Below are positions 4,361 through 60,350 of a stretch of 64,000 nucleotides of DNA, one piece after another (positions within the stretch are counted from its first letter, which is position 1; every line of letters starts with the position of its first letter). The stretch comes from Erpobdella octoculata. Lineage: Eukaryota; Annelida; Clitellata; Hirudinida; Erpobdellidae. The translations under genes and the position numbers were made by a program. Location of the stretch: NCBI GenBank assembly GCA_963978895.1, contig OZ022242.1, positions 24,097,663 to 24,161,662 on the forward strand, in the 5' to 3' direction. Below the pieces are notes generated by a model that was given only the letters and a program-made list of their open reading frames with translations, was not told where the DNA came from and did no database searches.

Positions 4361-5058
4361 CTACTCCTTGCTTTGATACAGCTCCGAGTTAGTCGACGTT
4401 TTTCTATAATTTACCCGATCATTCCTCTGAGTGCTGTCGTAGTTGGGAGCGGATTTCTGTGGTTTCCGACCAAAGCGTTTTCCTGCAGCCATTGCATCAA
4501 AACTTCTTACCCCTTCAACATTTCCCAGCACGAGATCGCAAAGTAGGTTTTTCATGCACACCACCTCTCTGGTTCCTCTGAGCCAGTCTGTTTTGATTTT
4601 TACCACTGCTGTTGGAGCTACCCGAACTGTGCCGTCAATCAAAACACAGGGTCTCGTTCTTCTGGTCATCTGACGCGGGTGCACTAATGATTCCTTTACC
4701 ATTATGGCAGTACAGCCAGTGTCCCTCAAAACCTTTACCGGTTTTCTGTTCACAAACCCTCTGGTTAAATTAAACTTTTCTCCTGAGTGCAAACAACCAT
4801 CCGCAGTGACAGGCAAAACGCATCCACACTTCAATTCCACCTCATCCATTTTTCCTTCCATCACCATGACAGAGCATGCATTCACAACGCCGGAATCCTT
4901 GCATAGTGCTGACGTAGTCGTCTCTTTCCGTGTTAGACAAATTACTGGATTACTAGGGCTACTTTGCCGACACTCTCTTGCCATGTGCCCCGTTTGATGA
5001 CAGTTTTAGCAGCGAGGTCCAACAATTTTGGAGTCACTGACCGGCTGACCCCGGTTCC
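4361..5058 (-). pseudogene. Ty3/gypsy gag zinc knuckle and protease fragment
   Basis: On the minus strand the fragment begins in a CCHC knuckle (CxNCHxxGHMAREC) in which the residue after the first Cys is a TAA stop near 5010, then runs open from 4984 to 4361. It contains the retropepsin active site VLRDTGCTAIMV. It is closely similar, residue by residue, to the C-terminal half of the 661-residue protein at 38600-40585 and breaks off at the shared sequence ELYQSKE. In an intact element these regions package RNA and cleave the polyprotein. Here the fragment lies downstream of RT and RNase H, the reverse of normal gypsy order, so it is a rearranged piece. Confidence 0.85.
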
Positions 5059-5568
5059 AATTGGTGAAACACGTATATCTTTTTTTTTTAAGTAGATACT
5101 AAGTATTAATTTTTACATCTGTAGCAATTACAGTTGTTGAGTAGCAGTTACTTTAAAAACCAAATAACCCTATTTTCCACCCCACATTTGAAGTCCTGGA
5201 AACCAAATTTTCAAAAAATGGTGAAACACGTATATCATTATTTTTAGAGTAGAAACTAAATACTAATTTTTATTTTTGTAGCATTCACAGTTTTTGAGTA
5301 GCAGCTACTTTAAAAACCAAGTAATCCTATTGTCCACCCCACATTTGAAGTCCTGGTTACCTAATTTTCAAAAAATGCTAAAACACGTATTTTATTATTT
5401 TTAGAGTAGAAACTAAATACTAATTTTTACTCATGTAGCATTCACAGTTTTTGAGTAGCAGCTACTTTAAAAACCAAATAACCCAATTTTCCAACCCACA
5501 TTTGAGGTCTGGGAAACCGAATTTTCAAAAAATGGCGAAACATGTATCTTTTTATTTTTCAAAAAGAA
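5059..5568 (-). repeat. ~160-bp Helentron minisatellite, three units
   Basis: Three degenerate units of about 160 bp contain the reverse complement of GGTTTCCAGGACTTCAAATG ... AAAACTG...GCTAC. The same unit fills the Helentron-like elements at 50.8-60 kb. It separates the two gypsy pieces and abruptly replaces the end of the RNase H reading frame at about 5568. Confidence 0.85.
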
Positions 5569-6718
5569 TCCATAGTATATGTAATGGTCGAATTTGTTAC
5601 AAGCAAACACGATGGCAAGAAGTTCTTTTTCTATCTGTGCATAGTTTTTTTCACAATCTGTTAAGGAACGGCTACTGTAAGCAACTGGCCCTTGAGACTG
5701 CATTAGACAAGCCCCTAATCCAAAACTTGAAGCATCAGCTTGAATCACAATGTCATCCTTTGGATTGAAAAATTTTAACAATGGCAGGTTGGACACAACG
5801 TTTTTAATCTTGTCCAATGCTACTGTGTGATTGGATGACCACTGAAAAATGGAATTTTTTTTTAACAAAGATCTGATGGTTCAGTGACGTCAGCCATTTT
5901 GGGAACAAACTTTATGATATACGCGAGCATGCCCATTAGACGACGTAAGTCAGACAATGACTTGGGCGGTGGCATGTTTGTGATCGCCTCAATTTTCTCT
6001 GGATCAGCTTTATTTTTTATTTATTTTTTTATTTCTTTTTCACAACGCCTTTTCCAAGACAAGTCTTGCTCGAAGGCGAGAAAGGGTAGTTAGTTGTAGA
6101 GGCAGCCATTTATAGGCGCCTACCCTTTTAGCAATGCGAGTGAACTCCTTGCTTAAGGGAGTTACGCTGGTGACGCCGGCGAGGTTCGAACTGCTGACCT
6201 AACGATCGACAGGCGAACGCTCTACCGCTCTGCCACCAGCTTTAACGCCTTCGTGTGAAATTATATGTCCCATGTAACAAACAGATTTAACCCGATATTG
6301 TATCTTGTTGATATTAAATCGAACACCATTTTTTAAAGCTTTTTCAAACACTTTGCTTAGTCATGTCATCAAATATGATATTCACTCCTCTTATGTCACC
6401 AAATATTGACGTGTTGATTCGTGAAACACCTCTGGGGCACTTGATATGCCAAATGGCATCCTCAACATTCGGTATCTTCCAAATGGTGTATTGAAGGTAC
6501 ACAAAAATGAGCTAGTTTCATCTAAAGGAACTTGATAGAACCCTTGGCTCATGTCTATCACCGTGAAGATTGTCTTGCCATGAAAAGTGTGGATAATGTC
6601 ATCAAGTGTTGGAATGCTAAAATGTTCTCTTAAAATGGCTTTGTTTAGATCTCTTGGATCGAGGCAGAGACGCAAAGATCCATTTTTCTTTTCAACAATC
6701 AACAACGAATTGACCCAC
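5569..6718 (-). pseudogene. Ty3/gypsy reverse transcriptase and RNase H fragment
   Basis: From 6718 downward the minus strand encodes RT motifs WVNSLLIVEKKNGSLRLCLD, FTVIDMSQGFYQVPLD and FGRYRMLRMPFGISSAPE, then, after frame breaks, VCYMGHIISHEG, a SINE insertion, PPPKSLSDLRRLMGM and the RNase H start VIQADASSFGLGACLMQ with RSLTDCEKNYAQIEKELLAI. The FADD-equivalent catalytic box is damaged or lost between 6391 and 6300. The piece starts inside RT, fused to a Helitron helicase, and stops inside RNase H at the minisatellite. It encodes no working enzyme. Confidence 0.88.
6013..6240 (-). mobile_element. tRNA-derived SINE inserted in gypsy pol
   Basis: On the minus strand it begins GCTGGTGGCAGAGCGGTAG (box A region) and has box B GTTCGAACC at about 6188-6180, then the body GTAGGCGCCTATAAATGGC and an A-rich (AAATAAA)n tail. 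The flanking duplication is CAGCTTTA at 6005-6012 and 6237-6244; its first bases overlap the SINE start, so the true duplication is 7-8 bp. RT-coding sequence is continuous if the element is removed. This is an RNA polymerase III-type retroposon with no protein. Confidence 0.9.
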
Positions 6719-31980: not shown

Positions 31981-34101
<2,121 letters not shown>

Positions 34102-34106
34102 AAACT

Positions 34107-35560
34107 CAATCATACAAGATCGCCCAAGTTTTACCCATACTAAAAAAACCTCGACCCTTCCATCCCATCCAACTACAGACCCATATCAAACCTCATCACC
34201 ATCTCAAAACTACTCGAGAGAATCGTACTGAAAAGATTAGGACCTCACATAACCTCATCATGCAACTACACAAAACTACAATCAGCCTATCGTTCCGGTC
34301 ACTCCACGGAAACAGCCTTACTTCACGTACTTGATTCTTTGCTACAAAACTGTGGCAACCAGAAAGCTGTTGTGCTGGTCTGCCTCGATCTCTCGGCCGC
34401 TTTCGACACCATTCGCCACGACATCCTCACTACCAGACTTGCCGACGAGTTTGGCGTTACCAGTTCTGCTTTGTCATGGATCTCCTCATACCTCAACAGC
34501 AGAAAACAATTCATAAAAATGGGCAAACACTCTTCTGCACCCTCTGCCCTTGACTCGAGTGTTCCCCAAGGCTCTGTCCTGGGACCTCTTCTATTCACAA
34601 CATACACCACACCTATCTGCGCCATCATCGAACAATCAAACGTCTCTTTCCACCAATACGCTGACGACATTTGTCTTTTCACTGCTCTCTCTTGTGACGA
34701 CTCACCAAACATGATCCAAACTCTTACACTCTGCACACACAAAATTCAACAGTGGCACCGCTTAAACCTTTTACAGTTAAACCCTACCAAGTCTGAAGTA
34801 ATCATCCTTGGCTCACCACAGCAACTCACCAAATTAAAAAAATTAACCTCAATAGACATCGCTGGAGCCACCCTTCCTATATCTTCACACGTTAAACTGC
34901 TAGGCGTCACCCTTGACAGCCACCTACGCTTCGACCGTCACATATCTTCGACTATAAAGGCCTGCAACTATCATATACAGGCCCTGAAACACATACGCCC
35001 CCTACTCTCTACTGAGACTGCTACCACCCTTGCACGCAGCCTAGTCACATCTAGACTGGACTACTGCAACTCTCTGCTCTACGGAACATCATCGACTCAC
35101 TTAAATAAACTTCAACGTATTCAGAATCAACTCGCCAAAGTCACCACAAACTCATCCACTGTCACTTCCTCCTCTTTTCATCTCCGCAAACTTCATTGGC
35201 TTCAATAGAATATAGAATTATTTTCAAGATATCACTACTAACCTACAAAATTCTCAGCACTAATAACCAACCTTACTTAAATAAACTCATCACCATTAGG
35301 ACCAACAATAGACAACTCCGTTCTTCCAACTCTCTCTCACTTTACCAACCGGTTAGCCACTCAAAACTCACCAATAGATCATTCAGCTACAGCTCCCCAG
35401 CCATCTGGAATTCACTGCCGCCATCAATCACATCATCACCATGTCTGACGTCGTTTAAAAAACATTTAAAGACTCATCTTTTTTCGAAGGCATTCGGACA
35501 AGATCCCGCGCGCCTCTGACGCTCCGCTACTGGCGCTTTACAAATTGACTATTATTATTA
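34107..35560 (+). pseudogene. CR1/L2-type LINE, 5'-truncated RT copy
   Basis: Coding starts inside RT at about 34110, with a frameshift near 34150, then NYRPISNLITISKLLER, LQSAYRSGHSTETALLHVLD, VCLDLSAAFDTIRHD (first catalytic Asp), SSVPQGSVLGPLLF, the catalytic box QYADDICLF and LNPTKSEVIIL. The frame breaks again at 35208 (LHWLQ stop) and the C-terminal motif continues from 35200 as IEYRIIFKISLLTYK, ending at 35519 with SPAIWNSLPPSI and FKKHLKTHLF. The 3' end TGGCGCTTTACAAATTGA runs into (ATT)n. RT catalytic residues are present, but the copy lacks its endonuclease and start. Confidence 0.92.
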
Positions 35561-35561
35561 T

Positions 35562-35850
35562 TATTATGAATATGAATATGAATGTGAATGTGAATGTGAA
35601 TGTGAATGCGAATGTTAATGTTAATGTTAATGTTAATGTTAATGTTAATGTTAATGTGGATGTGGATGTGGATGTGGATGTGAATGTAAATGTAAATGTA
35701 AATGTAAATGTAAATGTAAATGTAAATGTAAATGTAAATGTAAAGGTAAATGTGAACGTGAACGTGAACGTGAACGTAAACGTAAACGTAAACGTAAACG
35801 TAAACGTAAACGTAAATGTAAATGTAAATGTAAATGTAAATGTAAATGAG
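35562..35850. repeat. Second blockwise hexanucleotide array
   Basis: After (ATT)n the units pass through GAATAT, GAATGT, GTTAAT, GTGGAT, GTAAAT, GTGAAC, GTAAAC and GTAAAT. It lies on the other side of the LINE from the 33.5-34.1-kb array. Confidence 0.97.
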
Positions 35851-36818
35851 AGTTTTGTGAAGAGATTATCTCTGGAAACAAGTGCTTGCTAGCAAGGCTA
35901 GTAATTAGTTACCGTAGATTTACAACAACGAGGTTGTTTTATTAAAAATAGGTATCAAACGGATGGGTTGGACTAAATTAAATTGGACAAAATTTAGTGT
36001 CTTTCTTTTGCGTGTCAGCTACTTTTTTCGGTTGCGTTAATTTTGCCTTGTTCAATTATAAAACCTTGCTGTGTTTTGGAGACTGTAATATAACAACTAT
36101 GGTAGTAGTTGCAGTTGCAGCGGCAACAGCAAATGATGGAAAGCATCTTACAAACAACAGAGTTTTTTGAAATAAGAAAGAAAACGTATTGCAGGAAACG
36201 TTCCTGTAAAAACAAAATTTATTTTTGTTGTAGAAATTATCAAGTATTACATGAAATGTGATAATCAATTTGAAGATAACCCATTTAAAATGGTCAGAAT
36301 AAAATCTTGTAATAATTATTTGGTTTTTGATGCATTCTTGGTTTGACTATGACCAGAAATATTTATTTGGAAAAAAATAACACAGACAATCCCGTCAACA
36401 TACGACAACGCCAAAGAAGCCAATAATTCATTTGCCAAGGTTTACAGTGTCCTGGTAAAAATTGTTTCTGATCAGAAGGAAGTAAGTATTTGTAGTTAAT
36501 TTTATATTGTTTTTCTGACTGTTTTGAAGGTTAAAATATATTACTTGAAAATGCTCTATTTAATTTTTATAAATGCTCCCATTAATTTCTAATCTTTTTT
36601 ACAATTTTTTCCAATCAATTTTTGAGTCACTTCTTGATGATAGATTTTTTCAAATTTTGTATACATGCTCTTGCTTAAAGAGAATGCAATATTCAATAAT
36701 AAGGTTTACAAAAAACTTTTTTCAAAAAAATAAAAATGTAAAAGAATTGATTTTAAAATTTGACTTTTAATAACATAAATGCATTTGGTTTAAAAACTTT
36801 GTTTTTATATTGTTCATT
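35851..36818. other. Interval with a diverged repeat copy
   Basis: No gene seen. A diverged copy of the TTTTTGAGTCACTTC...GATGATAG repeat of 11969-12606 lies at about 36600-36710. The rest holds AT-rich sequence and short frames without motifs. Confidence 0.45.
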
Positions 36819-37277: not shown

Positions 37278-37900
37278 CAGTGGCGTTACTAGGGTTGGTG
37301 TCACTCAGTGCGGTAAATATTCAAATTATTTTCCAAATAATTTAAAATAAAAATACTAAATAAATTTTCTAAAAGTATTTCAAATCAAAATACAAAAATA
37401 CTTAAAATTATTTCAAATACGTATTTCAAATATAATGTATTTGAAATATTACCCAACACTGCTCATGGTGTCATCCAATCACGTATTACCCAAAGACTCA
37501 GACCTGTACGTCGTCATACAAGTTCATTTCTTTAAAATAGGACGTCAAAGTACTATTACCACACAAACTTTGCAAAAAAAAAAGTTAATTACGAGTTATA
37601 ATAACTATCAAAAGTGAACATAAATTTAAAACCAATCTGACATATTGAAAAAATGTTATAGTATTAGAATAATTGATACATACAACTCAAAAAAACTTGT
37701 ACGTAACTGCTGAAGACTAGACAATTTGATATATTTATAAGCTTTACTAAAAATAAAAAAAAGCAAATCACGCAAAGTAAAAAATCTGAAATGTTAACCC
37801 ACAAGATGTGTCGAAACATACAGTTCACCTTATAACGCTCCATTATGGGTGTCACTCCATGTTATGGTGTCATCCGATGCAGACCGTACCCCTTAGTGAC
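37278..37900. mobile_element. hAT-like MITE, right end displaced by LTR element 1
   Basis: Left end CAGTGGCGTTACTAGGG. The right end, CCCCTTAGTGAC continued by GCCGTTG, is its imperfect inverse and is split by LTR element 1; the last 7 bases lie at 41423-41429. Flanking 8-mers ATTCTGTG and ATTCTAAG agree at 6 of 8 positions. The interior has GGTGTCACTC / GGTGTCATCC repeats and no gene. Confidence 0.5.
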
Positions 37901-38501
37901 TGTAAGATGAAGATGATTCATCTTACGTATTTTCATAGTATTTGTTTATTTTATTTTATTATGTGTGCATATTTTGGTTGTGTTGAAACAATAGTCATTT
38001 ATGTATGAATGTATCTGTGTGTATATGTGTGTATATGTGTGTATATATATGTATATATAATGTATATGTATGTATATATGTATATTTGTGCTCCTGTGAC
38101 ATTGTGTGTGCGTATAATTTTTGTATCATTAATGTATATATATGTATATGTGTGTTTGAGTGTATATATACATGGATGGATGTATGTATATGTATATATA
38201 TATATATGTATATATATGTATATATATATATGTATATATATAATTGGTATTGGTCCTTTTCCTTTTTGTGGTCCTCAATAGAAAAAAGTAAGGTTGTAGA
38301 GTAGAGAAATTGGAATTATCAAAAGATTTGTCAGAACCGGGTTAACTTCTGCAAAGTGAGATAAGTCAGTTTAGAGTCAAGAAAAGAATTATATTCAAGG
38401 AAGAATAATAAAGTTAAAATAAATTCGAGAAATATTGTGTTATAAATAACTTCGACTTTAACGTTACGAATCGCTAGAAAGCATATTCCTCTACGTTTAC
38501 A
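37901..38501 (+). repeat. 5' LTR of element 1
   Basis: 601 bp. It starts with a 10-bp inverted repeat GTAAGATGAA / TTCATCTTAC and ends CTACGTTTACA. The middle is TATG/TATA-rich; an AATAATAAAG near 38406 could be a polyadenylation signal. Confidence 0.95.
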
Positions 38502-38502
38502 T

Positions 38503-38517
38503 TGGTGACCCCGACGT
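38503..38517 (+). other. Primer-binding site of element 1
   Basis: TGGTGACCCCGACGT begins one base after the 5' LTR, the normal position and start (TGG) of a gypsy-type primer site. The tRNA was not assigned. Confidence 0.8.
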
Positions 38518-38599
38518 ATTTACGCATTTTCATCCGTAAATATATTTTCTGAAGTTGTTTGATCACAAGTGACCGAATTTTTTTTTTCTTTTGTGAAAG

Positions 38600-40585
38600 A
38601 TGTCTGACGAGAAATTCATTGCGATGGGACAGGCTCTCGGCTATTCCGGAGTGGATTTAAGGAGTTATGTCAAAGAGTTGAAGGATGAAGAAAGGGTTAA
38701 GAGAATGGAGGAACGGGAAGAAAAAAAGGCTCAGCAGGAGCGTGAAGATAAAATAGCACAACGGGAACGTGAAGATAAAATAGCACAACAAGAACGGGAA
38801 CGTGAAGAACGAGAACTCCAACTTCAACAAGCTAAAGAAGAACGAGAACTCCAACTTCAACAAGCTAAAGAAGAACGAGAACTCCAACAAGCTAAAGAAG
38901 AACGAGAACTCCAACAAGCTAAAGAAGAACGAGAACTTCAACTTCTACGTGAGCGCGAACAACGCCAACATGAATTGGAATTGAAGAAGCTGGAATTAGA
39001 GGCCCTAACGAAAAAAGAGCCAAAGGTAGAGGTAACAAAGATTCCTTATCCAAAGTTTTCTGAAGGTGATGACATCGACGCATTTTTGCTGAGATTTGAG
39101 TCATTGGCAAAAGCCAATGGTCATCCTCAGAAGGATTGGGGAATGCTTCTAGGGTCGTTGCTTAGTGCGAAGACTTTGGAGGGGTTTGGCCAAATTAGCA
39201 ATAGTCAGATGCAGGACTACAGAACGGCAAAGGAGGCACTCCTTCGTCGTTTTGGGAAGTCAGCGGAAGACTATCGCATAATGTTTCGAGAGTCAAAGCC
39301 TGAACCGGAGGAGACCTGGGAACATTATCTAGTGCGGCTAGATAGCCACCTCAGGCGCTGGGTGGATCTCACGGGCAAACAAAACCTGTTGTTTTTGTTT
39401 CTGAAAGAACAGTTTTTCGGAAAGTGCCCGGCGGGAATGGTCGAGTACTTGTTGGAGAAAGAGAGCAAAGATGTCAATGAGCTGTGCCTTTGGGTAAACA
39501 AGTACAGCCAAGCCCACCCAGAGAAGAGGTTGGAAAAATTGGACAGCAAAAGCAGGATTAGCGGAAATCGTGGTCAACCAGACTCTGACTCGGGAATGGC
39601 TGGACCACGCTGTTACAATTGCAATAAGCTGGGCCATATGGCAAAGGATTGTCATCACGCTGGACAGATTGCGAGGGACTACAGTCAAGGCACTCAGGCA
39701 ACTCCAGTCATGTGCCAAGCGCGTAGAGAGGCCAACTTGACACCACCATGTAAAGATTCTGGAGTAGTGAATGCATGCGCGGTCATGGTGTTGGATGGTA
39801 AAATGAATGAGGTCCAATTAAAATGTGGCTGCTTTTCACCGGTAATAGCGGATGGTTGTTTTCACTCAGGAGAAAAATTTAAATTGACCAGAGGGTTTGT
39901 GAACAGAAAACCGGTAAAGGTTTTGAGGGACACTGGCTGTACTTCCATAATAGTAAAGGAATCATTAGTGCACCCGCGTCAGATGACCGGAAGAACAAGA
40001 CCCTGTGTTTTGATCGACGGCACAGTTCGGGTGGCTCCAACAGCAGTGGTAAAAATCAAAACAGACTGGTTCAGAGGAACCAGGGAGGTGGTGTGCATGA
40101 AAAACCTACTTTACGATCTCGTGCTGGGAAATGTTAAAGGGGTAAGGGGTTTTGATGCAATGGCGGCAGGAAAACGCTTTGGTCGGAAACCACAGAAATC
40201 CGCTTCCAACTACGACAGCACTCAGAGGAATGATCGGGTAAATTTTAGAAAATCGTCGGCTAACTCGGAGCTGTATCAAAGCAAGGAAAGAAACACGTCT
40301 GCCATTTCAAAGGTAGGAAATAAAGTTGAGGCAAAAATTCAAGCTTTGAATACGCCAAAAGAAAGACCAAGGCTCAATCTTCTGCCTAGAGGCCAAAATG
40401 GAGGGGTGGGGAAAGATCGAAAGTTGAATTCGGCAATCTTCGGAGATGCCCGTCCTGTTGACATAGCACGCAGAGAGATAGAGATTGAGAATAAGTTGAA
40501 AGTAAACTATTTCAAAGGCAAGGAGAACATCGGTGCTGACTTTCTTAGTCATAAAGAGAGTGACGATGTAATCAAGAAACACTGA
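38600..40585 (+). CDS. Gag-protease polyprotein with eIF4B-like segment
   Basis: One uninterrupted frame of 661 residues from ATG 38600, the first ATG after the primer site. Residues 30-140 are a Glu/Arg/Gln-rich coiled coil with tandem ERELQ-QAKE units. Residues about 145-325 are gag (FSEGDDIDAFLLRFESLA). A CCHC knuckle CYNCNKLGHMAKDC is at 338-351 and the retropepsin site VLRDTGCTSIIV has Asp at 444. Residues about 586-634 do not look viral: ERPRLNLLPRG, then NSAIFGDARPVD and ARREIEIENKL, the order and spacing of a conserved eIF4B motif. Residues 634-654 (VNYFKGKENIGADFLSH) are the very end of a gypsy RNase H. RT and the rest of RNase H are thus replaced by about 45 host-like residues. The eIF4B match is from memory, without a search. 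The gag-PR part should be functional in sequence. Confidence 0.88.
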   Translation: MSDEKFIAMGQALGYSGVDLRSYVKELKDEERVKRMEEREEKKAQQEREDKIAQREREDKIAQQEREREERELQLQQAKEERELQLQQAKEERELQQAKEERELQQAKEERELQLLREREQRQHELELKKLELEALTKKEPKVEVTKIPYPKFSEGDDIDAFLLRFESLAKANGHPQKDWGMLLGSLLSAKTLEGFGQISNSQMQDYRTAKEALLRRFGKSAEDYRIMFRESKPEPEETWEHYLVRLDSHLRRWVDLTGKQNLLFLFLKEQFFGKCPAGMVEYLLEKESKDVNELCLWVNKYSQAHPEKRLEKLDSKSRISGNRGQPDSDSGMAGPRCYNCNKLGHMAKDCHHAGQIARDYSQGTQATPVMCQARREANLTPPCKDSGVVNACAVMVLDGKMNEVQLKCGCFSPVIADGCFHSGEKFKLTRGFVNRKPVKVLRDTGCTSIIVKESLVHPRQMTGRTRPCVLIDGTVRVAPTAVVKIKTDWFRGTREVVCMKNLLYDLVLGNVKGVRGFDAMAAGKRFGRKPQKSASNYDSTQRNDRVNFRKSSANSELYQSKERNTSAISKVGNKVEAKIQALNTPKERPRLNLLPRGQNGGVGKDRKLNSAIFGDARPVDIARREIEIENKLKVNYFKGKENIGADFLSHKESDDVIKKH

Positions 40586-40600
40586 CGCGTTTCTTTTTTC

Positions 40601-40614
40601 GAAGAGGGGGGATA
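40601..40614 (+). other. Polypurine tract of element 1
   Basis: GAAGAGGGGGGATA directly precedes the 3' LTR, 16 bases after the ORF stop. Confidence 0.8.
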
Positions 40615-41417
40615 TGTAAGATGAAGATGATTCATCTTACGTATTTTCATAGTATTTGTTTATTTTATTTTATTATGTGTGCATATTTTGGTTGTGTTGA
40701 AACAATAGTCATTTATGTATGAATGTATCTGTGTGTATATGTGTGTATATGTGTGTATATATATGTATATATAATGTATATGTATGTATATATGTATATT
40801 TGTGCTCCTGTGACATTGTGTGTGCGTATAATTTTTTGTATCATTAATGTATATATATGTATATGTGTGTTTGAGTGTATATATACATGGATGGATGTAT
40901 GTATATGTATATATATATATGTATATATATATATGTATATATATATATGTATATATATATATAATTGGTATTGGTCCTTTTCCTTTTTGTGGTCCTCAAT
41001 AGAAAAAAGTAAGGTTGTAGAGTTCAACTCCGCCTCGCTATATGCGAGCCAGTCCCAAGCCTGGATAAAGGAGGAGGGACAGTTGAAAAGATCAAATATG
41101 ATCTACGACAGGAAGTACTTAGGTGCTTTCTACACAGCCATTTCAGTCTTAAAACACCTAGTGTAAAGGACTATAAACTATTATAAAAAAAAAAAAAAAA
41201 AAAAAAAGGTTGTAGAGTAGAGAAATTGGAATTATCAAAAGATTTGTCAGAACCGGGTTAACTTCTGCAAAGTGAGATAAGTCAGTTTAGAGTCAAGAAA
41301 AGAATTATATTCAAGGAAGAATAATAAAGTTAAAATAAATTCGAGAAATATTGTGTTATAAATAACTTCGACTTTAACGTTACGAATCGCTAGAAAGCAT
41401 ATTCCTCTACGTTTACA
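40615..41417 (+). repeat. 3' LTR of element 1
   Basis: 803 bp, the 601-bp LTR plus a SINE with its target duplication and a few TA units. Otherwise nearly identical to the 5' LTR. Confidence 0.95.
41023..41205 (+). mobile_element. Poly(A) SINE with a non-tRNA head
   Basis: 183 bp from TTCAACTCCGCCTCGC to a run of over 20 A. It is flanked by a 12-bp duplication AAGGTTGTAGAG (41011-41022 and 41206-41217), and the uninterrupted site is seen in the 5' LTR at about 38291. No box A/B tRNA head is evident. The first 60 bases can fold into hairpins CTCGC-TATAT-GCGAG and CCAG-TCCCAAGC-CTGG closed by CTCC...GGAG. A second, inverted copy is at 48957-49129. The poly(A) tail implies mobilisation by an L1- or RTE-like LINE. 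Confidence 0.9.
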
Positions 41418-41429
41418 GTGACGCCGTTG

Positions 41430-41886: not shown

Positions 41887-43459
<1,573 letters not shown>

Positions 43460-43958
43460 TATCATTTACAATTTTCTTTGCATCTTTGGTTTTAATTTAA
43501 TTTAATTTTTATTTAATTTTTATTTTATTTTTATTTTATTTATTTTATTTAATTTATTTTATTTATTTATTTTATTATCTCGTTCTTTAACTTAACAAGT
43601 TATCCCGTCTTAACCCCTATTGAGCCCTTTCTACCGTTCGAATAATATTTTTGTTTTTACTAACAATATAATTCTTATTATCTCTTCCGTGATTTTCATT
43701 CTTAAATTTACTGGATTTTAACATTACATATTAGGTCTCTTTTTATTTATATATTCTATTGATTTTAATATGTTCAAATTTCTATAATAGCTCCATTTCT
43801 CCTTTTTTTTATAAATTCCTGAGTTATATATTTAATTTAAACTCTGTATTTAGACTCTATTATTCTCGTATCTTGTCTATGTTTACATTCGATGTTTATT
43901 TGCCCTGAAGATGACAATTTCGTCGAAACTGGCCAGTAGGCAATAGATTAAATAAATT
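43460..43958 (+). repeat. Penelope pseudo-LTR between copies A and B
   Basis: 3' UTR rich in TTTATTTTATT, then the hammerhead-like motif, then the start codon of copy B at 43959. The same ~500 bp recurs at 46964-47462, which is the pseudo-LTR layout of Penelope-like elements. Confidence 0.85.
43899..43944 (+). ncRNA. Hammerhead-ribozyme-like motif, copy 1
   Basis: Core boxes CTGAAGA (43905-43911) and GAAA (43925-43928). Stem I TTGCC/GGCAA pairs across the motif, stem II is GAC-AATTTC-GTC, stem III is CTGG/CCAG with no loop, and the cleavage triplet would be GTA before GGCAA. One extra U lies between the first box and stem II. Type I hammerheads with a very short stem III are known from Penelope-like elements. 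Activity is not shown by the sequence. Confidence 0.68.
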
Positions 43959-46900
43959 ATGTCTTTAAACAATAGTTCTAGTTTGTTTAATATAAAAAAG
44001 CGACGTATTGAAAATCTGTGCAAAAAAGTAATAAACCTTAAATGGCGTATAGTTTTTAACAGCGCGTGTCTTAACGAAAATCTAATACCTCGCTATGTAA
44101 ACAATAAATTACGGCGCGCAGCGAAAGATAACGATAGTAATAATACAATAGCGTCTATTGTTAATTTTGAGTTGGTTTCTGCCAAGAAAAGTTTTGCACA
44201 GACTGAAGCTTTATTTGAAAGAGAGAAAATGCTGTATTGAATGTACTGCCTGAACAACAATCTATTGACTTGTCTCAGCATATTACTACATTTCATTCTA
44301 GATATGATTCCGTGAAAAGAAGCGTCGTTGGACGTAAACTTTCCGATCTGTAGGGACGAAAATTCTTTCTTAAAGACAATGTTGCACATTTCACTAATAT
44401 TTCATCTTACCTCCCTACTCCTGACGAAATAACGTTTTTACAGTTAGGGTATAACTGTCATATACCATCGACATACAACCCTCTGACAAAGCAGACCGAA
44501 CTTGAGGTTCTTTACAGCGATATCTGGAATAAAGCTAAAAGTGGTCATCTTCGGTTTGATGAAAGGTTGCCAGCCCTATTGTCTGCTGAAAGTTTCACAC
44601 ACCGTAACAACCATTCTAAATTCAAAGGTTTACCACAGAATCTACGTTTAGCTGCCAAGTCACTCAGAAATAATAAGAAGATTATCATTCGCAAGGCTGA
44701 TAAGTCAAATACCTACGTCGTCTTAAATCGAGATGAGTATATACAAAAATTGGACTGTATTCTTTCAGATGAATGTAAGTTCAAAAAACTTAATTCAAAC
44801 TCTACCGATACTTTGAAGAAGAGAGCCAATGTCATCATAAGGCGGTTAAATACTGAAGGATCTCTGGCGTTACGACAGGTTGTTGGCGATTACAGTCCGG
44901 GCTACATATATGGAAATGTGAAGACTCACAAGAGTGGTAACCCTCTTCGTCCAATAATCTCACAGTGCCCCACTCCCATTCATCTACTGGCCAAATCGAT
45001 TAACTCTATTATAGCTCCATACTGCCCTTCGCAGTATTCTCTCTCTTCTTCATTAGACTTCATCAATCTTCTCCGAGCTACACCACACCACTCAGGCATC
45101 ATGGCTTCATTAGATGTCGAGAGCCTGTTTACCAACGTCCCCGTGTTGGGCACAATCGACATAATTATACAGTGTGTTTACCATCATCCAACTCTTCCCC
45201 CTCCAGCGTTTGGTGAGGATTTGTTAAAGGACGTTCTCCTTCTGTGTACCACGGAAGTGCCATTTAGACACCCAAGTGGTCAATTGTACGCCCAGGTCGA
45301 CGGTGTGGCGATGGGGTCACCTCTCGGTCCCACATTTGCCGGTTTTTACATGGGCAACCTCGAAAAAGAAATATTTACCAATAAAAATCTTAAACCAGTT
45401 ATCTATGCAAGGTATGTTGACGATATATTCGTACTGTGTCAAGATATCCAAGAAATATTAAATCTTAAAGAAACTTTCGAAAAATCATCGGTCTTGAAAT
45501 TTACATATGAACTTCCTAGCAAAGAGAATCGGTTACCATTTCTCGATACTCTAATTTCTAATGCTGAAAATAACTTCAAAATCCAAGTGTATAACAAACC
45601 TACAAATGGTGGTGAAACTCTCAATGGGGATAGTTTCTGCCCCGTAAAGTACAAAATCAGTGTGATCTTAAGCTTTCTAACTCGAGCGTATAGGATCACT
45701 GACAATAATTCTGACTTTAACATCGAGATTGACAAAATCAAATCTCTTCTCATAAATAATAATTTTTCGAATACGCTAGTAGATAGTGTTATCCAAAATT
45801 TTCTGAACAAGAAACGTCCTCATTGCACTCAAAGAAAAAGTCTTGATTCTTCAGTGCAACTCTTCTATCGTGCTCAGATGCATGATATGTACCGTTTAGA
45901 TGAAACGGTGCTTCGGAAAATTGTTATGAAGAACGTCCGACTAACTGATCCGAGCCAGACACTACAGCTACACATATATTACCAAAATCTCAAATCAAGA
46001 GACTTGGTCATTAGTAATAACCTTGGTGTAGATACAAGGCCTGCGCAAAGAACTAACGTTGTGTACAGGTTTACATGCCCCCATTGCCATCAAACTCCGC
46101 AATTTTACATTGGGCACACACGCACCACACTCTCAAGACGAATGACAATGCATGTACAAGGAGGATCCATACATACTCACTTCGTCAAGCGCCATTCAAC
46201 AAAACCGTCTCACCAACTTTTACTTAATAATACTGAAATAATTGCTTTTGAGTCAGACCCACTTCGCCTTAAAATCAAAGAGGCTCTACTCATCATCCAA
46301 CATAAACCACCGATAAACATACAGGATAACCGATTTGACCATACCCTGCACCTGTATGGGACTGCTGTCGAGGTCAGTGTACAACCGCCAAAGGTGATGA
46401 CAGGTTCTTGCCAACTCGATGTCGATAATGCTATACGGTTGGATATCGATAACACTTGTGCTCTTCTTGAGAAAAATACGGAAACACAGACGATTAATGG
46501 TGGACTTCTAAATCTATCTGGCTATAGAATTGAAGAGCCAACCGTCCAGCCATTATACGTTTGTCAACCCGTCAGTCAAAAACTGGAAAGTCTACAAGCC
46601 GGTTTACCTCTCGACGTGTTCATAGATCAGCCGATAATTCAACCGTTGGACCCAAGTGTAGTTGCGGTGCATGATGAATTGTCTACATGTCTTGCGGACA
46701 GTCAGTCGCGCGTTCCTAGTGACTGCTCTACACCCACTTCCATTTACAAAACTCCCAAAAAGTCCTCTGACGACATGTCCGTTGCCAAGTCTGTGTCGCC
46801 CACTGAGCTTCACTCTTCTCCTCAACCTCTGAATGTGGGTAACGCTGGGTGCTCGTCGGCTCGACTGGGCGATTCGCCGGTGTTCTCTCCAGATAACTAC

Positions 46901-46963
46901 ATACCAGTTGATATGGAGACATTCAAGCACCTTGCCTTGAATGTAACTATAAGACGTAGATAA
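43959..46963 (+). pseudogene. Penelope-like element copy B, RT plus GIY-YIG endonuclease
   Basis: ATG 43959 opens the N-terminal region (KKVINLKWRIVFNSACL, LIPRYV); a frameshift near 44229 and a TAG at 44351-44353 follow. From 44567 a frame of 798 residues is open to 46963. Motifs numbered from that Met: IRKADKSNTYVVL 41-53, RPIISQCPTP 128-137, SLDVESLFTN with Asp183, DGVAMGSPLGP 245-255, catalytic box RYVDDIF with Asp285 and Asp286, then a GIY-YIG endonuclease at about 498-585 with TCPHCH, FYIGH and Glu572. Residues 600-798 are a Ser/Pro-rich extension ending in FKHLALNVTIRRR. All catalytic residues are present; two lesions in the N-terminal part make the full ORF defective. Confidence 0.92.
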
Positions 46964-47462
46964 TATCATTTACAATTTTCTTTGCATCTTTGGTTTTAAT
47001 TTAATTTAATTTTTATTTAATTTTTATTTTATTTTTATTTTATTTATTTTATTTAATTTATTTTATTTATTTATTTTATTATCTCGTTCTTTAACTTAAC
47101 AAGTTATCCCGTCTTAACCCCTATTGAGCCCTTTCTACCGTTCGAATAATATTTTTGTTTTTACTAACAATATAATTCTTATTATCTCTTCCGTGATTTT
47201 CATTCTTAAATTTACTGGATTTTAACATTACATATTAGGTCTCTTTTTATTTATATATTCTATTGATTTTAATATGTTCAAATTTCTATAATAGCTCCAT
47301 TTCTCCTTTTTTTTATAAATTCCTGAGTTATATATTTAATTTAAACTCTGTATTTAGACTCTATTATTCTCGTATCTTGTCTATGTTTACGTTCGATGTT
47401 TATTTGCCCTGAAGATGACAATTTTGTCGAAACTGGCCAGTAGGCAATAGATTAAATAAATT
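46964..47462 (+). repeat. Penelope pseudo-LTR downstream of copy B
   Basis: Nearly identical to 43460-43958 at 3504-bp spacing. Differences include TTTCGTC/TTTTGTC inside the hammerhead loop and TTACATTCG/TTACGTTCG. Confidence 0.9.
47403..47448 (+). ncRNA. Hammerhead-ribozyme-like motif, copy 2
   Basis: Same boxes and stems as the motif at 43899, with one C-to-T change in the stem II loop that does not affect pairing. Confidence 0.68.
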
Positions 47463-47610
47463 ATGTCTTTAAACAATAGTTCTAGTTTGTTTAATATAAA
47501 AAAGCGACGTATTGAAAATCTGTGCAAAAAAGTAATAAACCTTAAATGGCGTATAGTTTTTAACAGCGCGTGTCTTAACGAAAATCTAATACCTCGCTAT
47601 GTAAACAATA
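47463..47610 (+). pseudogene. Penelope copy C, first codons only
   Basis: The first ~49 codons repeat those of copy B and stop being homologous after GTAAACAATA at 47610, where TA repeats begin. It is probably the 3' part of the pseudo-LTR of the same insertion and not a third gene. Confidence 0.8.
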
Positions 47611-47636
47611 TATATATATATATATATATAATACAA
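47611..47636. repeat. (TA)n at the head-to-head Penelope junction
   Basis: About 25 bp of TA repeat joining two Penelope families in opposite orientation. Confidence 0.9.
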
Positions 47637-48229: not shown

Positions 48230-50292
<2,063 letters not shown>

Positions 50293-50787: not shown

Positions 50788-52226
50788 TCTATATATATAA
50801 AAGAACATGTCCTGACTGACAGATGACTGACTCATAATCAACGCCGAGCTCAAACGCCTCATCCTAGGAACGTGAAATTTGGAACTTATATTACTTTTAT
50901 AGCGTAAACATCCGCTAAGAAAGGATTTTTGAAAATTTTGCTCCTGAGGGGAAAAAACTGCTTTTTTCTAAAACAATGTATATCTCGAAAACCAAAAATG
51001 AAGAGATTTTGAAATTTGGTATATAGATTCTTTTTGAAAAATAAAAAGATACGTGTTTAACCATTTTTTGAAAATTCGGTTTCCCGGACCTCAAATGTGG
51101 GCTGGAAAATTGGGTTATTTGGTTTTTAAAGTAGCTTCTACTCAAAAACAGTAAATACCACAGATGTAAAAATTATTATTTAGTTTCTTTTCTAAAAATA
51201 AAGATATACGTGTTTCACCATTTTTTACAAATTTGGTTTCCCGGACCTCAAATGTGGGTTGGAAAATTGGGTTATTTGGTTTTTAAAATTTTGTAGCTTC
51301 TACTCGAAAACTGTTAATGCTACAAAAGTAAAAATTAGTATTTAGTTTCTACTCTAAAAATAATGATATACGGGTTTCACAATTTTTTGAAAATTTGGTT
51401 TCCAGGACTTCAAATGTGGGGTGGAAAATAGGGTTATTTGGTTTTTAAAGTAACTGCTACTCAAAAACTGTAGATGCTACAGGAGTAAAAATTCGTATTT
51501 GGTTTCGACTCCAAAAATAATGATATACGTGTTTTACCATTTTTTGAAAATTTGGTTTCCAGGAATTCAAATATGGGGTGGAAAATAGGGTTACTTGGTT
51601 TTTAAAGTAACTGCTACTCAAAAACTGTAAATGCTACAAAAGTAAAATTAGTATTTAGTTTCTACTCTAAAAATAATGATATACGTATTTCACCATTTTT
51701 TGAAAATTTGGTTTCCAGGACCTCAAATGTGAAGTGGAAAAAGGGTTATTTGATTTTAAAATAACTGCTACTCAAAAACTGTAAGTGCTACAGATGTGAA
51801 AATTAGTATTTTGAGGTTTTGTGCCGGTTAAAAGTAGATGAGTTCAGTTTATCACCGGACGGACGGGCCAAGCCGTTATTTTAGGGTCTTCATACGGCCC
51901 TGCCCAAACCTTGAATCAAGGTGGGACGGGCCAATATTTTTAACCAAGTATATAGACATTTTAGTGATTTTAGGGTGTTCAGACGGGCCGGGCTAAACCT
52001 GAAGTCAAGGTGGGACGGGCCGAAGTTTTTCATCAAGTATATAGAACTTCTAGGCCTGTAAAAAAGGGGCCGGGCCAGGAATTTTGGTTTTTGAAACGGG
52101 CTGGGCCAAGTTGTCGACGGGCCGAGCCGAGACCTAAAAAATTGATCCGTGCAGTACTCTACTATGTAAGCACGGTTCAAATTCTCTAATTTCATGCGAA
52201 CGAAGCCGCTACGGGCACTGCTAGTT
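50788..52226 (+). mobile_element. Helentron-like element 2 with ~160-bp internal repeats
   Basis: 5' end TCTATATATATAAAAGAACA followed by CTGACTGACAGATGACTGAC and CCTAGGAACGTGAAATTTGG; 3' end CGAACGAAGCCGCTACGGGC then ACTGCTAGTT. The interior is five units of a ~160-bp minisatellite (GGTTTCCAGGACTTCAAATG...) and a GC-rich block of ACGGGCCGGGC motifs (51840-52130) that may be an old hAT insertion with right end CCGTGCAGTACTCTA. No coding capacity. It is the first of three tandem versions. Confidence 0.75.
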
Positions 52227-52230
52227 ATAA

Positions 52231-53740
<1,510 letters not shown>

Positions 53741-53914
53741 TGATGTGGTGGTGACTAATGGTTCTTCAGGGTTTGTGAAGGATGGTTTGGTACAAAATGT
53801 GACGGCGACTGGCGTTTCATCGGAAATTATAAAGGAGGATCATTGCAGAATGCGGTGGTGATTGGTGAAAGTTCATCAGTTTTTTCGGACCCCATCACCG
53901 TCTCAGCGACTGTC

Positions 53915-54050
53915 GATACAAGGCCTGCGCAAAGAACTAACGTTGTGTACAGGTTTACATGCCCCCATTGCCATCAAACTCCGCAATTTTACATTGGGCA
54001 CACACGCACCACACTCTCAAGACGAATGACAATGCATGTACAATGACAAT
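53915..54050 (+). repeat. Penelope-derived filler at unit 1/2 junction
   Basis: 129 bp (53915-54043) identical to the endonuclease region of the Penelope copies (42534-42655 and 46038-46159 area: TACAAGGCCTGCGC to CAATGCATGTACAA), followed by TGACAAT, a second copy of bases found within the filler. It joins an exon-like segment at shared GATA to a Helentron at GAACGTG. Confidence 0.93.
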
Positions 54051-55413
54051 GAACGTGAAATTTGGAACTTATATTACTTTTATAGCGTAAACATCCGCTA
54101 AGAAAGGATTTTTGAAAATTTTGCTCCTGAGGGGAAAAAACTGCTTTTTTCTAAAACAATGTATATCTCGAAAACCAAAAATGAAGAGATTTTGAAATTT
54201 GGTATATAGATTCTTTTTGAAAAATAAAAAGATATGTGTTTCACCATTTTTTGAAAATTCGGTTTCCCGGACCTCAAATGTGGGCTGGAAAATTGGGTTA
54301 TTTGGTTTTTAAAGTAGCTTCTACTCAAAAACAGTAAATACCACAGATGTAAAAATTATTATTTAGTTTCTTTTCTAAAAATAAAGATATACGTGTTTCA
54401 CCATTTTTTACAAATTTGGTTTCCCGGACCTCAAATGTGGGTTGGAAAATTGGGTTATTTGGTTTTTAAAATTTTGTAGCTTCTACTCGAAAACTGTTAA
54501 TGCTACAAAAGTAAAAATTAGTATTTAGTTTCTACTCTAAAAATAATGATATACGGGTTTCACAATTTTTTGAAAATTTGGTTTCCAGGACTTCAAATGT
54601 GGGGTGGAAAATAGGGTTATTTGGTTTTTAAAGTAACTGCTACTCAAAAACTGTAGATGCTACAGGAGTAAAAATTAGTATTTGGTTTCGACTCCAAAAA
54701 TAATGATATACGTGTTTTACCATTTTTTGAAAATTTGGTTTCCAGGAATTCAAATATGGGGTGGAAAATAGGGTTACTTGGTTTTTAAAGTAACTGCTAC
54801 TCAAAAACTGTAAATGCTACAAAAGTAAAATTAGTATTTAGTTTCTACTCTAAAAATAATGATATACGTATTTCACCATTTTTTGAAAATTTGGTTTCCA
54901 GGACCTCAAATGTGAAGTGGAAAAAGGGTTATTTGATTTTAAAATAACTGCTACTCAAAAACTGTAAGTGCTACAGATGTGAAAATTAGTATTTTGAGGT
55001 TTTGTGCCGGTTAAAAGTAGATGAGTTCAGTTTATCACCGGACGGACGGGCCAAGCCGTTATTTTAGGGTCTTCATACGGCCCTGCCCAAACCTTGAATC
55101 AAGGTGGGACGGGCCAATATTTTTAACCAAGTATATAGACATTTTAGTGATTTTAGGGTGTTCAGACGGGCCGGGCTAAACCTGAAGTCAAGGTGGGACG
55201 GGCCGAAGTTTTTCATCAAGTATATAGAACTTCTAGGCCTGTAAAAAAGGGGCCGGGCCAGGAATTTTGGTTTTTGAAACGGGCTGGGCCAAGTTGTCGA
55301 CGGGCCGAGCCGAGACCTAAAAAATTGATCCGTGCAGTACTCTACTATGTAAGCACGGTTCAAATTCTCTAATTTCATGCGAACGAAGCCGCTACGGGCA
55401 CTGCTAGTTATAA

Positions 55414-55862
<449 letters not shown>

Positions 55863-57113
55863 TTTAAAATTCGGTTTCCCGGACCTCAAATGTGGGTTGG
55901 AAAATTGGGTTATTTGGTTTTTAAAGTAGCTGCTATTCAAAAACTCTGAATGCTACAGGAGTAAAAATTATTTTTTGGAGTTTCTACTCCACAATTAATG
56001 AAATACGTGATTTAGCATTTTTTGAAAATTTGGTTTCCAGGACTTCAAATTGTGGGGTGGAAAATAGGGTTATTTGTTTTTTAAAGTAACTGCTACTCAA
56101 AAACTGTAAATACCACAGATATAAAAATTAGTATTTAGTTTCTATTCTAAAAATAAAGATATATGTGTTTTACCATTTTTTTAAAATTTGGTTTCCAGGA
56201 CCTCAAATGTGGGGTGGAAAATAAGGTTATTTGGTTTTTAGTGTCACTGCTACTCGAAAACTGTAGATGCTACAGGAGTAAAAATTAGTATTTGGTTTCT
56301 ACTCCAGAAATAATGATATACGTGTTTTACCATTTTTTGAAAATTTGGTTTCCAGGACTTCAAATATGGGGTGGAAAATAGGGTTACTTGGTTTTTAAAG
56401 TAACTGCTACTCAAAAACTGTAAATGCTACAAAAGTAAAATTAGTATTTAGTTTCTACTCTAAAAATAATGATATACGTGTTTCATCATTTTTTGAAAAT
56501 TTGGGTTCCAGGACCTCAAATGTGAAGTGGAAAAAGGTTTATTTGATTTTAAAATAACTGCTACTCAAAAACTGTAAGTGCTACAGATGTGAAAATTAGT
56601 ATTTTGAGGTTTTGTGCCGGTTAAAAGTAGATGAGTTCAGTTTATCACCGGACGGACGGGCCAAGCCGTTATTTTAGGGTCTTCATACGGCCCTGCCCAA
56701 ACCTTAAATCAAGGTAAGACGGGCCTAGATTTTTAACCAAGTATATAGACATTTTAGTGATTTTAGGGTGTTCAGACGGCCGGGCTAAACCTGAAGTGAA
56801 GGTGGGACGTACCGAAGTTTTTCATCAAGTATATAGAACTTCTAGGCCTTTAAAAACGGGCCGGGCAGGAATTTTGGTTTTTGAAACGGGCTGGGCCAAG
56901 TTGTCGACGGGCCGAGCCGAGACCTAAAAAATTGGTGGATGATGTGGTGGTGACTAATGGTTCTTCAGGGTTTGTGAAGGATGGTTTGGTACAAAATGTG
57001 ACGGCGACTGGCGTTTCATCGGAAATTATAAAGGAGGATCATTGCAGAATGCGGTGGTGATTGGTGAAAGTTCATCAGTTTTTTCGGACCCCATCACCGT
57101 CTCAGCGACTGTC

Positions 57114-57249
57114 GATACAAGGCCTGCGCAAAGAACTAACGTTGTGTACAGGTTTACATGCCCCCATTGCCATCAAACTCCGCAATTTTACATTGGGCAC
57201 ACACGCACCACACTCTCAAGACGAATGACAATGCATGTACAATGACAAT
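57114..57249 (+). repeat. Penelope-derived filler at unit 2/3 junction
   Basis: Exact copy of the unit 1/2 junction: 129 bp of Penelope endonuclease sequence and TGACAAT. The repeat of a complex junction means the second duplication copied the first. Confidence 0.93.
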
Positions 57250-58612
57250 GAACGTGAAATTTGGAACTTATATTACTTTTATAGCGTAAACATCCGCTAA
57301 GAAAGGATTTTTGAAAATTTTGCTCCTGAGGGGAAAAAACTGCTTTTTTCTAAAACAATGTATATCTCGAAAACCAAAAATGAAGAGATTTTGAAATTTG
57401 GTATATAGATTCTTTTTGAAAAATAAAAAGATATGTGTTTCACCATTTTTTGAAAATTCGGTTTCCCGGACCTCAAATGTGGGCTGGAAAATTGGGTTAT
57501 TTGGTTTTTAAAGTAGCTTCTACTCAAAAACAGTAAATACCACAGATGTAAAAATTATTATTTAGTTTCTTTTCTAAAAATAAAGATATACGTGTTTCAC
57601 CATTTTTTACAAATTTGGTTTCCCGGACCTCAAATGTGGGTTGGAAAATTGGGTTATTTGGTTTTTAAAATTTTGTAGCTTCTACTCGAAAACTGTTAAT
57701 GCTACAAAAGTAAAAATTAGTATTTAGTTTCTACTCTAAAAATAATGATATACGGGTTTCACAATTTTTTGAAAATTTGGTTTCCAGGACTTCAAATGTG
57801 GGGTGGAAAATAGGGTTATTTGGTTTTTAAAGTAACTGCTACTCAAAAACTGTAGATGCTACAGGAGTAAAAATTAGTATTTGGTTTCGACTCCAAAAAT
57901 AATGATATACGTGTTTTACCATTTTTTGAAAATTTGGTTTCCAGGAATTCAAATATGGGGTGGAAAATAGGGTTACTTGGTTTTTAAAGTAACTGCTACT
58001 CAAAAACTGTAAATGCTACAAAAGTAAAATTAGTATTTAGTTTCTACTCTAAAAATAATGATATACGTATTTCACCATTTTTTGAAAATTTGGTTTCCAG
58101 GACCTCAAATGTGAAGTGGAAAAAGGGTTATTTGATTTTAAAATAACTGCTACTCAAAAACTGTAAGTGCTACAGATGTGAAAATTAGTATTTTGAGGTT
58201 TTGTGCCGGTTAAAAGTAGATGAGTTCAGTTTATCACCGGACGGACGGGCCAAGCCGTTATTTTAGGGTCTTCATACGGCCCTGCCCAAACCTTGAATCA
58301 AGGTGGGACGGGCCAATATTTTTAACCAAGTATATAGACATTTTAGTGATTTTAGGGTGTTCAGACGGGCCGGGCTAAACCTGAAGTCAAGGTGGGACGG
58401 GCCGAAGTTTTTCATCAAGTATATAGAACTTCTAGGCCTGTAAAAAAGGGGCCGGGCCAGGAATTTTGGTTTTTGAAACGGGCTGGGCCAAGTTGTCGAC
58501 GGGCCGAGCCGAGACCTAAAAAATTGATCCGTGCAGTACTCTACTATGTAAGCACGGTTCAAATTCTCTAATTTCATGCGAACGAAGCCGCTACGGGCAC
58601 TGCTAGTTATAA

Positions 58613-59051
<439 letters not shown>

Positions 59052-60233
59052 TTTAAAATTCGGTTTCCCGGACCTCAAATGTGGGTTGGAAAATTGGGTT
59101 ATTTGGTTTTTAAAGTAGCTGCTATTCAAAAACTCTGAATGCTACAGGAGTAAAAATTATTTTTTGGAGTTTCTACTCCACAATTAATGAAATACGTGAT
59201 TTAGCATTTTTTGAAAATTTGGTTTCCAGGACTTCAAATTGTGGGGTGGAAAATAGGGTTATTTGTTTTTTAAAGTAACTGCTACTCAAAAACTGTAAAT
59301 ACCACAGATATAAAAATTAGTATTTAGTTTCTATTCTAAAAATAAAGATATATGTGTTTTACCATTTTTTTAAAATTTGGTTTCCAGGACCTCAAATGTG
59401 GGGTGGAAAATAAGGTTATTTGGTTTTTAGTGTCACTGCTACTCGAAAACTGTAGATGCTACAGGAGTAAAAATTAGTATTTGGTTTCTACTCCAGAAAT
59501 AATGATATACGTGTTTTACCATTTTTTGAAAATTTGGTTTCCAGGACTTCAAATATGGGGTGGAAAATAGGGTTACTTGGTTTTTAAAGTAACTGCTACT
59601 CAAAAACTGTAAATGCTACAAAAGTAAAATTAGTATTTAGTTTCTACTCTAAAAATAATGATATACGTGTTTCATCATTTTTTGAAAATTTGGGTTCCAG
59701 GACCTCAAATGTGAAGTGGAAAAAGGTTTATTTGATTTTAAAATAACTGCTACTCAAAAACTGTAAGTGCTACAGATGTGAAAATTAGTATTTTGAGGTT
59801 TTGTGCCGGTTAAAAGTAGATGAGTTCAGTTTATCACCGGACGGACGGGCCAAGCCGTTATTTTAGGGTCTTCATACGGCCCTGCCCAAACCTTAAATCA
59901 AGGTAAGACGGGCCTAGATTTTTAACCAAGTATATAGACATTTTAGTGATTTTAGGGTGTTCAGACGGCCGGGCTAAACCTGAAGTGAAGGTGGGACGTA
60001 CCGAAGTTTTTCATCAAGTATATAGAACTTCTAGGCCTTTAAAAACGGGCCGGGCAGGAATTTTGGTTTTTGAAACGGGCTGGGCCAAGTTGTCGACGGG
60101 CCGAGCCGAGACCTAAAAAATTGGTGGATGATGTGGTGGTGACTAATGGTTCTTCAGGGTTTGTGAAGGATGGTTTGGTACAAAATGTGACGGCGACTGG
60201 CGTTTCATCGGAAATTATAAAGGAGGATCATTG

Positions 60234-60350
60234 CAGAATGCGGTGGTGATTGGTGAAAGTTCATCAGTTTTTTCGGACCCCATCACCGTCTCAGCGACTG
60301 TCGATAAATTTCTTAGAAAGTTTAAAAGCGCATCTCTTCGTGACCTAAAA
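60234..60350 (+). CDS. Candidate host exon, partially copied in the upstream units
   Basis: After a possible acceptor ATTGCAG at 60228-60234 the frame reads NAVVIGESSSVFSDPITVSA then TVDKFLRKFKSASLRDLK and meets a possible donor GTCTAG at 60351, in phase 0. In units 1 and 2 the same segment is present only to TVD, where Penelope filler begins. Just upstream a related peptide (KDGLVQNVTATGVSSEIIK) in a shifted frame looks like an earlier repeat of the same motif. The acceptor is weak, so the left edge is uncertain. Confidence 0.45.

Follow-up and report, generated by a model that had tools for sequence, protein, structure and literature searches.

Gene capture by LTR elements is already a known kind of event, and the capture of oncogenes by retroviruses is a related form of gene transduction. 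In LTR elements it is known mainly as single events, after which the captured piece decays or becomes a host gene. Non-autonomous LTR elements of the TRIM and LARD types, which have no reverse transcriptase (RT), are presumed to use enzymes in trans. Cases of LTR-mediated retroposition have been described (Tan et al., 2016, as cited in PMC5408686); in these, as in Bs1 of maize, host coding sequence lies between LTRs, is fused to the element and can transpose again. LTR elements of bdelloid rotifers are described as carrying extra captured ORFs (PMC5408684). For Ty3/gypsy elements of the Gmr1 type, the order PR-IN-RT-RNase H is stated in PMC2774666.

The DNA analysed here (the window, 64,000 nucleotides from Erpobdella octoculata) contains a complete LTR element at 37901-41417, with one long ORF between its LTRs. 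The ORF runs from gag and protease into a segment resembling the translation initiation factor eIF4B, and from there into the end of an RNase H (Table 1). Like Bs1, the element would thus hold fused host coding sequence between LTRs; it differs in that the piece is a short translation-factor motif residing in an old, diversified, high-copy family, with different element ends combined and signs of constraint. The acquisition of extra coding sequence is shared with the rotifer elements, but there the sequence is described as forming additional ORFs, whereas here the segment is fused into the gag-protease ORF. Unlike TRIM- and LARD-like elements, the window family has retained a gag-protease ORF that is long and conserved and includes sequence from the host. 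No report of an eIF4B sequence in an LTR element was found in the open-licence literature, at the level of titles and the beginnings of abstracts; within that literature, what is new is the nature of the cargo, the fact that it has been retained, with signs of constraint, in subfamilies that have diverged, and its joining to different element ends. Here, the captured piece has stayed, in hundreds of copies and several subfamilies. As the nearest host gene and the likely helper family are present in the same assembly, the domestication of a host motif becomes testable, and an element domesticating a translation-factor motif of its host would be the reverse of hosts domesticating Gag or protease.

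Table 1. Features of the LTR element, in window coordinates.
Feature	Position	Strand	Evidence and remarks
Target-site duplication GTGAC, 5 bases	37896..37900	.	partner 41418-41422
5' LTR, TG...CA ends	37901..38501	+	vs 3' LTR: 600 matches, 1 mismatch, indels aside
Single ORF, gag-protease-eIF4B-RNase H tail	38600..40585	+	661 codons plus stop
CCHC zinc knuckle of gag, residues 337-351	39608..39652	+	PF00098, E 2e-5
Retropepsin-like protease with LRDTGC, residues 432-510	39893..40129	+	PF13975, E 0.0024 (weak, under Pfam's cut-off); aligned to P0001-P0004
69-codon linker; no convincing source found, also present in older subfamilies	40148..40354	+	
Captured eIF4B segment, PKERPRLNLLPR ... SAIFGDARPVDIARREIEIENKLK	40355..40501 (start approximate)	+	PDB search, shuffles, host genes
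C-terminal RNase H end, VNYFKGKENIGADFLSH...	40499..40582	+	homology to RT-bearing L085 begins at 40499
3' LTR, TG...CA ends, with an insertion of ~195 bases	40615..41417	+	
A-tailed repeat inserted in 3' LTR	41011..41205 (approximate ends)	+	repeated aaggttgtagag on its flanks

By eye, the start of gag is coiled-coil-like. Neither the ORF listing nor Pfam yielded an RT or integrase of the element's own, so that the element is without integrase, RT and most of RNase H. An earlier note, made from the letters alone, had proposed that an eIF4B-like block replaced RT and most of RNase H in a reading frame that stays open; the open frame held up, and both losses are real, with integrase missing as well. 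The linker was compared with human eIF4B, with both host eIF4B genes described below and with the linkers of related elements, and gave no convincing match; the best of 20 comparisons was matched or exceeded by 15 of 500 shuffles. The A-tailed repeat of the 3' LTR has one relative at 48957-49125 (- strand, 89%) in the window and a second near the intron-bearing eIF4B gene of the host (L048, 825-1001); the two are 88-89% like it.

The last 151 residues of the protein were searched blindly with phmmer against 177,635 distinct PDB sequences, and human eIF4B was the top match (6fec_u 353-410, E 0.0043). Aligned with this 58-residue stretch, the segment scores 93; none of 5000 shuffles reached that score (mean 26.6, maximum 60), and the next best among the window's 1128 stop-to-stop stretches of at least 30 residues scores 36. 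Against each of the two host eIF4B genes the block gives an E value of 6e-11 (search of 30 kb around the genes), a comparison with the genome's own eIF4B that the earlier note had suggested. The segment thus significantly resembles the RPxLNL..SIFGxAxPVD block of eIF4B in human and host, as that note had read it. Pfam has no family matching the last 151 residues and no RRM in the window protein, this one block being all of eIF4B that is present; when the last 142 residues were compared with 5.8 billion proteins, 828 candidates came up, none at E <= 1. Scores against eIF4B are 95-98 for copies that share the PVDTA of human eIF4B and 89-93 for those with PVDIA, the window's among them. In divergent copies PVDT is the usual reading, and the window's PVDIA therefore looks derived. 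Judged by these alignments, the segment derives from eIF4B. The corresponding part of eIF4B is flanked by the DRYG region on one side and the arginine-rich motif on the other. That it might contact the initiation machinery or RNA is a guess. A domain list of eIF4B is given in PMC9598784.

The 386-Mb assembly, in which the window lies on contig C5, was searched for further copies. A DNA search with 40120-40585 gave 632 first-look candidates, and the 40 that were scored were all full length and 98-100% identical. A 51-base probe spanning the point where eIF4B meets RNase H, searched with no more than 3 mismatches, matched at 370 places (177 + 193), the reversed control at none (0 + 0). This rules out a one-off capture accident and supplies the further genomic copies with the same junction that the earlier note had asked for. 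The window element and 20 copies fetched from the 40 listed ones were then compared. Both LTR starts and ends are visible in 18 of the 21; L019, L023 and L027 showed no 5' LTR start and were left out of the LTR count. Seventeen of the 18 have an exact 5-base target duplication, the exception, L013, lying within ATAC-type repeats, and their LTRs diverge by 0-2.0% (0.2-0.5% in 13/18). In all 21 copies the LTRs lie about 1.5-2.2 kb apart, which leaves too little room for RT and integrase besides gag-protease. The ORF is open from MSDEKF to the stop in 12/20 fetched copies (window not counted) and the last 154 codons are stop-free in 21/21, with intactness over-represented since the best-scoring copies were fetched. 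The chimera has itself retrotransposed, as supposed in the earlier note, and has done so repeatedly. The window element is one of the young members of a Ty3/gypsy family that is of the Gmr1 type, non-autonomous and present in high copy number.

Older relatives came to light in a search with 601 bases of the intronless host eIF4B gene on contig C8, in which all 28 candidates were scored: the gene itself, two pieces on contig C1 and 25 matches that are short and cover the SIFG core. All 25 were inspected, L053-L059 as seven loci and the other 18, L062-L079, as short fetches. A motif scan found the motif in 16/18 short fetches (none in L062 and L072), and in 22/25 the sequence beside the block can be recognised by eye as the element's linker or its 3' tail. 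One of these matches, C3:12167617 (L065), was considered as a host exon and rejected: it is a copy of the element that has been broken, and the 3' end follows about 300 bases further along. For L053-L059, likeness to the window element is 68-86% in the main aligned pieces and up to 91% in short ones; in L059 it is only scattered. In these older subfamilies, about 70% alike in DNA, the block follows the same linker (..SANSDLYQSKKKNTCATSKLGNKVEAKVQALNPPKERPKLSLLSK..RSSIFGDARPVDTSRRDQEIERRLKEN, with variants) and is followed by a different 3' tail, which in L053-L057 reads ..KENSSDQGTACKPKFMSNLKNTKCFLSKRGDM and variants and holds no RNase H end. L054 and L057 are unbroken from gag via the eIF4B block into the LTR and are therefore without RT too. 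A stop lies inside the 24-codon core in 3/23 divergent copies.

The single joining event supposed in the earlier note did not survive this comparison: since older subfamilies share the protease-linker-eIF4B stretch and have another tail, the joining of the RNase H tail was probably a later step. The 3' switch maps to about 40499. Along the window ORF, nucleotide identity to L054 is 0.65-0.77 at 38900-39649, with 0.65-0.69 in the middle of gag, 0.81-0.87 at 39650-40099 and 0.75-0.79 beyond, and pooled synonymous differences amount to 0.81 in gag against 0.48 in the CCHC-protease part (5 copies each). Taken with the different 3' tails, this pattern suggests that the protease-linker-eIF4B stretch recombined with different gag and 3' ends. 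The linker, being the same in divergent copies, argues for a single capture of the eIF4B piece.

The account that we favour, with a probability of roughly 0.85 for the whole, is of a Gmr1-type chimera in which a template switch during reverse transcription, the likeliest origin of the capture, joined eIF4B sequence to element RNA once, long ago. Later switching would have brought the stretch into a new setting, with gag, 3' end and LTR all coming from a related autonomous family; this family, represented by locus L085, would supply RT and integrase in trans via matching LTR ends. The eIF4B piece would have been kept as useful, helping the Gag-protease protein or its RNA and perhaps touching the translation machinery. 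According to PMC5408686, the RT of LTR elements is able to change templates between the element's RNA and an mRNA packaged with it, fusing host sequence into a cDNA that gains LTRs.

Selection in the 24-codon core, where changes between subfamilies are mostly silent, bears on whether the piece is useful. Between the window and L054, pS is 0.67 and pN 0.18 (Fisher 4.5e-4); the values are 0.48 and 0.14 (0.0052) for L017 and L058, and 0.42 and 0.07 (0.0024) for L054 and L058. Fisher values are below 0.01 in 8/11 pairs, which are not independent, and above it for L017-L059 (0.039) and for L054-L059 and L058-L059 (0.15 each). The test covers 24 codons in related copies, and the divergent copies were found via DNA likeness to the host gene in this very core, which favours little-changed ones. 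Pooled pN/pS, calculated for each region from 5 or 6 of the 7 divergent copies and with some frame-shifted pieces raising pN, is 0.52 for residues 589-636 (48 codons) and 0.60 for the linker, against 0.34 for gag and 0.37 for CCHC-protease, indicating weaker constraint on segment and linker than on gag. Among the young copies, variants shared by two or more of them comprise 5 synonymous and 5 nonsynonymous changes; singletons, 4 synonymous and 17 nonsynonymous, look neutral. Recent changes thus look neutral and older ones less so, in small numbers. The eIF4B core is likely under constraint.

The same anatomy would result had the capture been real and the eIF4B piece a functionless passenger in a non-autonomous chimera mobilised in trans, function being the sole difference from the favoured account. 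The neutral look of the singletons speaks for it, as do the 8/20 fetched copies not open from MSDEKF to the stop and the core stops in the divergent copies; Bs1 retrocopies, moreover, are described in PMC5408686. Yet the core was kept in subfamilies about 70% alike, with mostly silent differences, and the last 154 codons stayed free of stops in every young copy, albeit the best-scoring ones. We see a passenger as conceivable, with the odds somewhat against it. The fullest form of the favoured account, that an RT-less parasitic lineage domesticated the eIF4B motif, which was selected for an advantage to the element and passed between backbones as a cassette, is put forward tentatively. Such an advantage could lie in recruiting initiation machinery, 40S or eIF4A to element RNA, or in steering this RNA from translation to packaging.

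The host's eIF4B genes were sought with human eIF4B in the same genome. Of 29 candidates, 25 matched at E <= 10, and two of these stood out from the rest by a wide margin: an intron-bearing gene on contig C1 (25.798 Mb, E 1.9e-15, pieces across L048 and L049) and an intronless paralog on C8 (7.399 Mb, E 9.2e-26), which has an RRM by Pfam and an open frame of 661 codons from the first Met (L047, 4472-6457). The C1 gene carries the block as PKERPKLNLMPR...SIFGAAKPVDTAQREREIEAKLR, the C8 gene twice, as PKERPKLNLLPR...SIFGNARPVD and then as a second SIFGDARPVDTTRREQEIEAKLK. The SIFG-PVD block is thus duplicated inside the C8 protein. Two further partial copies of this intronless paralog family lie on C1 at 7.22 Mb (L060/L061, 92%). 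Among four references, the second C8 repeat was strictly best for the 24-residue core in 21/21 young copies, with a mean match of 18.5/24 against 16.6/24 for the C1 gene; it was also best in 23/23 divergent copies, but these were found using the C8 gene, and the result is unbiased only for the young ones. Of the references compared, this genome's intronless eIF4B paralog comes nearest to the segment. The patterns IFGGA-PVD and GFGYAEF had no match in the genome, both host genes differing at those residues.

With the nearest gene intronless, the joining might have happened at the DNA level, by insertion of the element into the paralog or recombination with it and with no mRNA step. In the C1 gene, the segment's match is confined to a single exon (L049, 3805 to about 4047; splice sites judged by eye), so that DNA and RNA donors look alike in the intron check that the earlier note had proposed. 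Indirectly, the repeated mosaicism, at the 3' tail and in gag, argues against such a joining, being typical of RNA-template switching, and we consider it unlikely.

Its relatives place the element among Gmr1-type Ty3/gypsy elements. Six of 7809 candidates in the protein collection match its gag-protease part at E <= 0.01, P0001-P0004 at 2.2e-43 or better. Likeness to the type lies in the gag-protease relatives P0001-P0005, in the integrase following the protease in P0002 and P0003, and in the position of RNase H in the relative L085, where it is the final domain ahead of the LTR; the window family differs in having no integrase, no RT and no Pfam SCAN match, and in carrying the eIF4B segment. 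P0002 and P0003 have a SCAN-type gag, a protease and then directly the integrase. An integrase search of the same genome gave at least 151 matches (150 of 2980 candidates scored) in several identity classes, and one representative each of four classes was taken, two short pieces of each being read. L085, representing the 55-56% class, has the order integrase, RT-RNase H (PF17917, E 1.4e-37), LTR, so that the Gmr1 order is seen in the relative only. Its end reads ..RIKVNYIKGQENIGADFLSRQES.., and its RNase H ends in KVNYIKGQENIGADFLSR, the window's in KVNYFKGKENIGADFLSH; the RNase H tail that the earlier note had recognised is thus genuine. From 40499 on, the window aligns with L085 through the RNase H end and the polypurine tract, and the two are nearly identical where the LTR begins; the window chimera has, in consequence, the 3' end and LTR start of the L085 family.

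An autonomous Gmr1-type element could instead have captured the segment between protease and integrase, the RT-less form arising later by deletion, and the segment does occupy the place where integrase follows protease in P0002 and P0003. Against this stand the short inter-LTR distance in all 21 young copies, the continuity from gag into the LTR in L054 and L057, and L082, representative of the other close family (61-65% class), which has an ordinary linker without eIF4B. No relative with both the eIF4B segment and RT, the case that would refute the earlier note, was found among the copies read (L085 in short pieces that cover little of its protease-integrase stretch). Capture in an autonomous element seems to us rather unlikely. 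A fortuitous resemblance between eIF4B and a charged C-terminus of low complexity, which the match of only about 50 residues and the lack of a Pfam family or protein-collection match might suggest, is already refuted by the shuffles, the host-gene E values and the better match of older copies, and has practically no probability left.

The window holds further repeats. At 4361-5080 (- strand) lies a second gag-protease-linker piece, broken on both sides, in which 4365-4949 is 89.6% like 39703-40287; the end of likeness at 40287 was considered as a capture junction and rejected, as an unrelated, Arg-Glu-rich dispersed repeat lies beyond (beginning at 4367, with 3745 first-look candidates). The gag-protease-linker piece is adjoined at 5467-5880 (- strand) by a gypsy-like RNase H fragment of another family, ..VIQADASSFGLGACL.., recognised by eye. 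A 3.5-kb tandem duplication, 99.7% identical, covers 41993-44109 and 45497-47613; the 798-codon ORF at 44567-46963 has an RT domain (PF00078, E 2e-10) and is Penelope-like by eye, and 42008-43456 has a GIY-YIG-like end by eye, where Pfam gave no match. A tandem array of ~3.2-kb units at 50868-60306, with three copies more than 99% alike and shorter internal repeats in each, has relatives at 5059-5574. Long arrays of 6-base units occupy 34000-34119 and 35521-35886 (ACATGA and AAATGT/AACGTA types).
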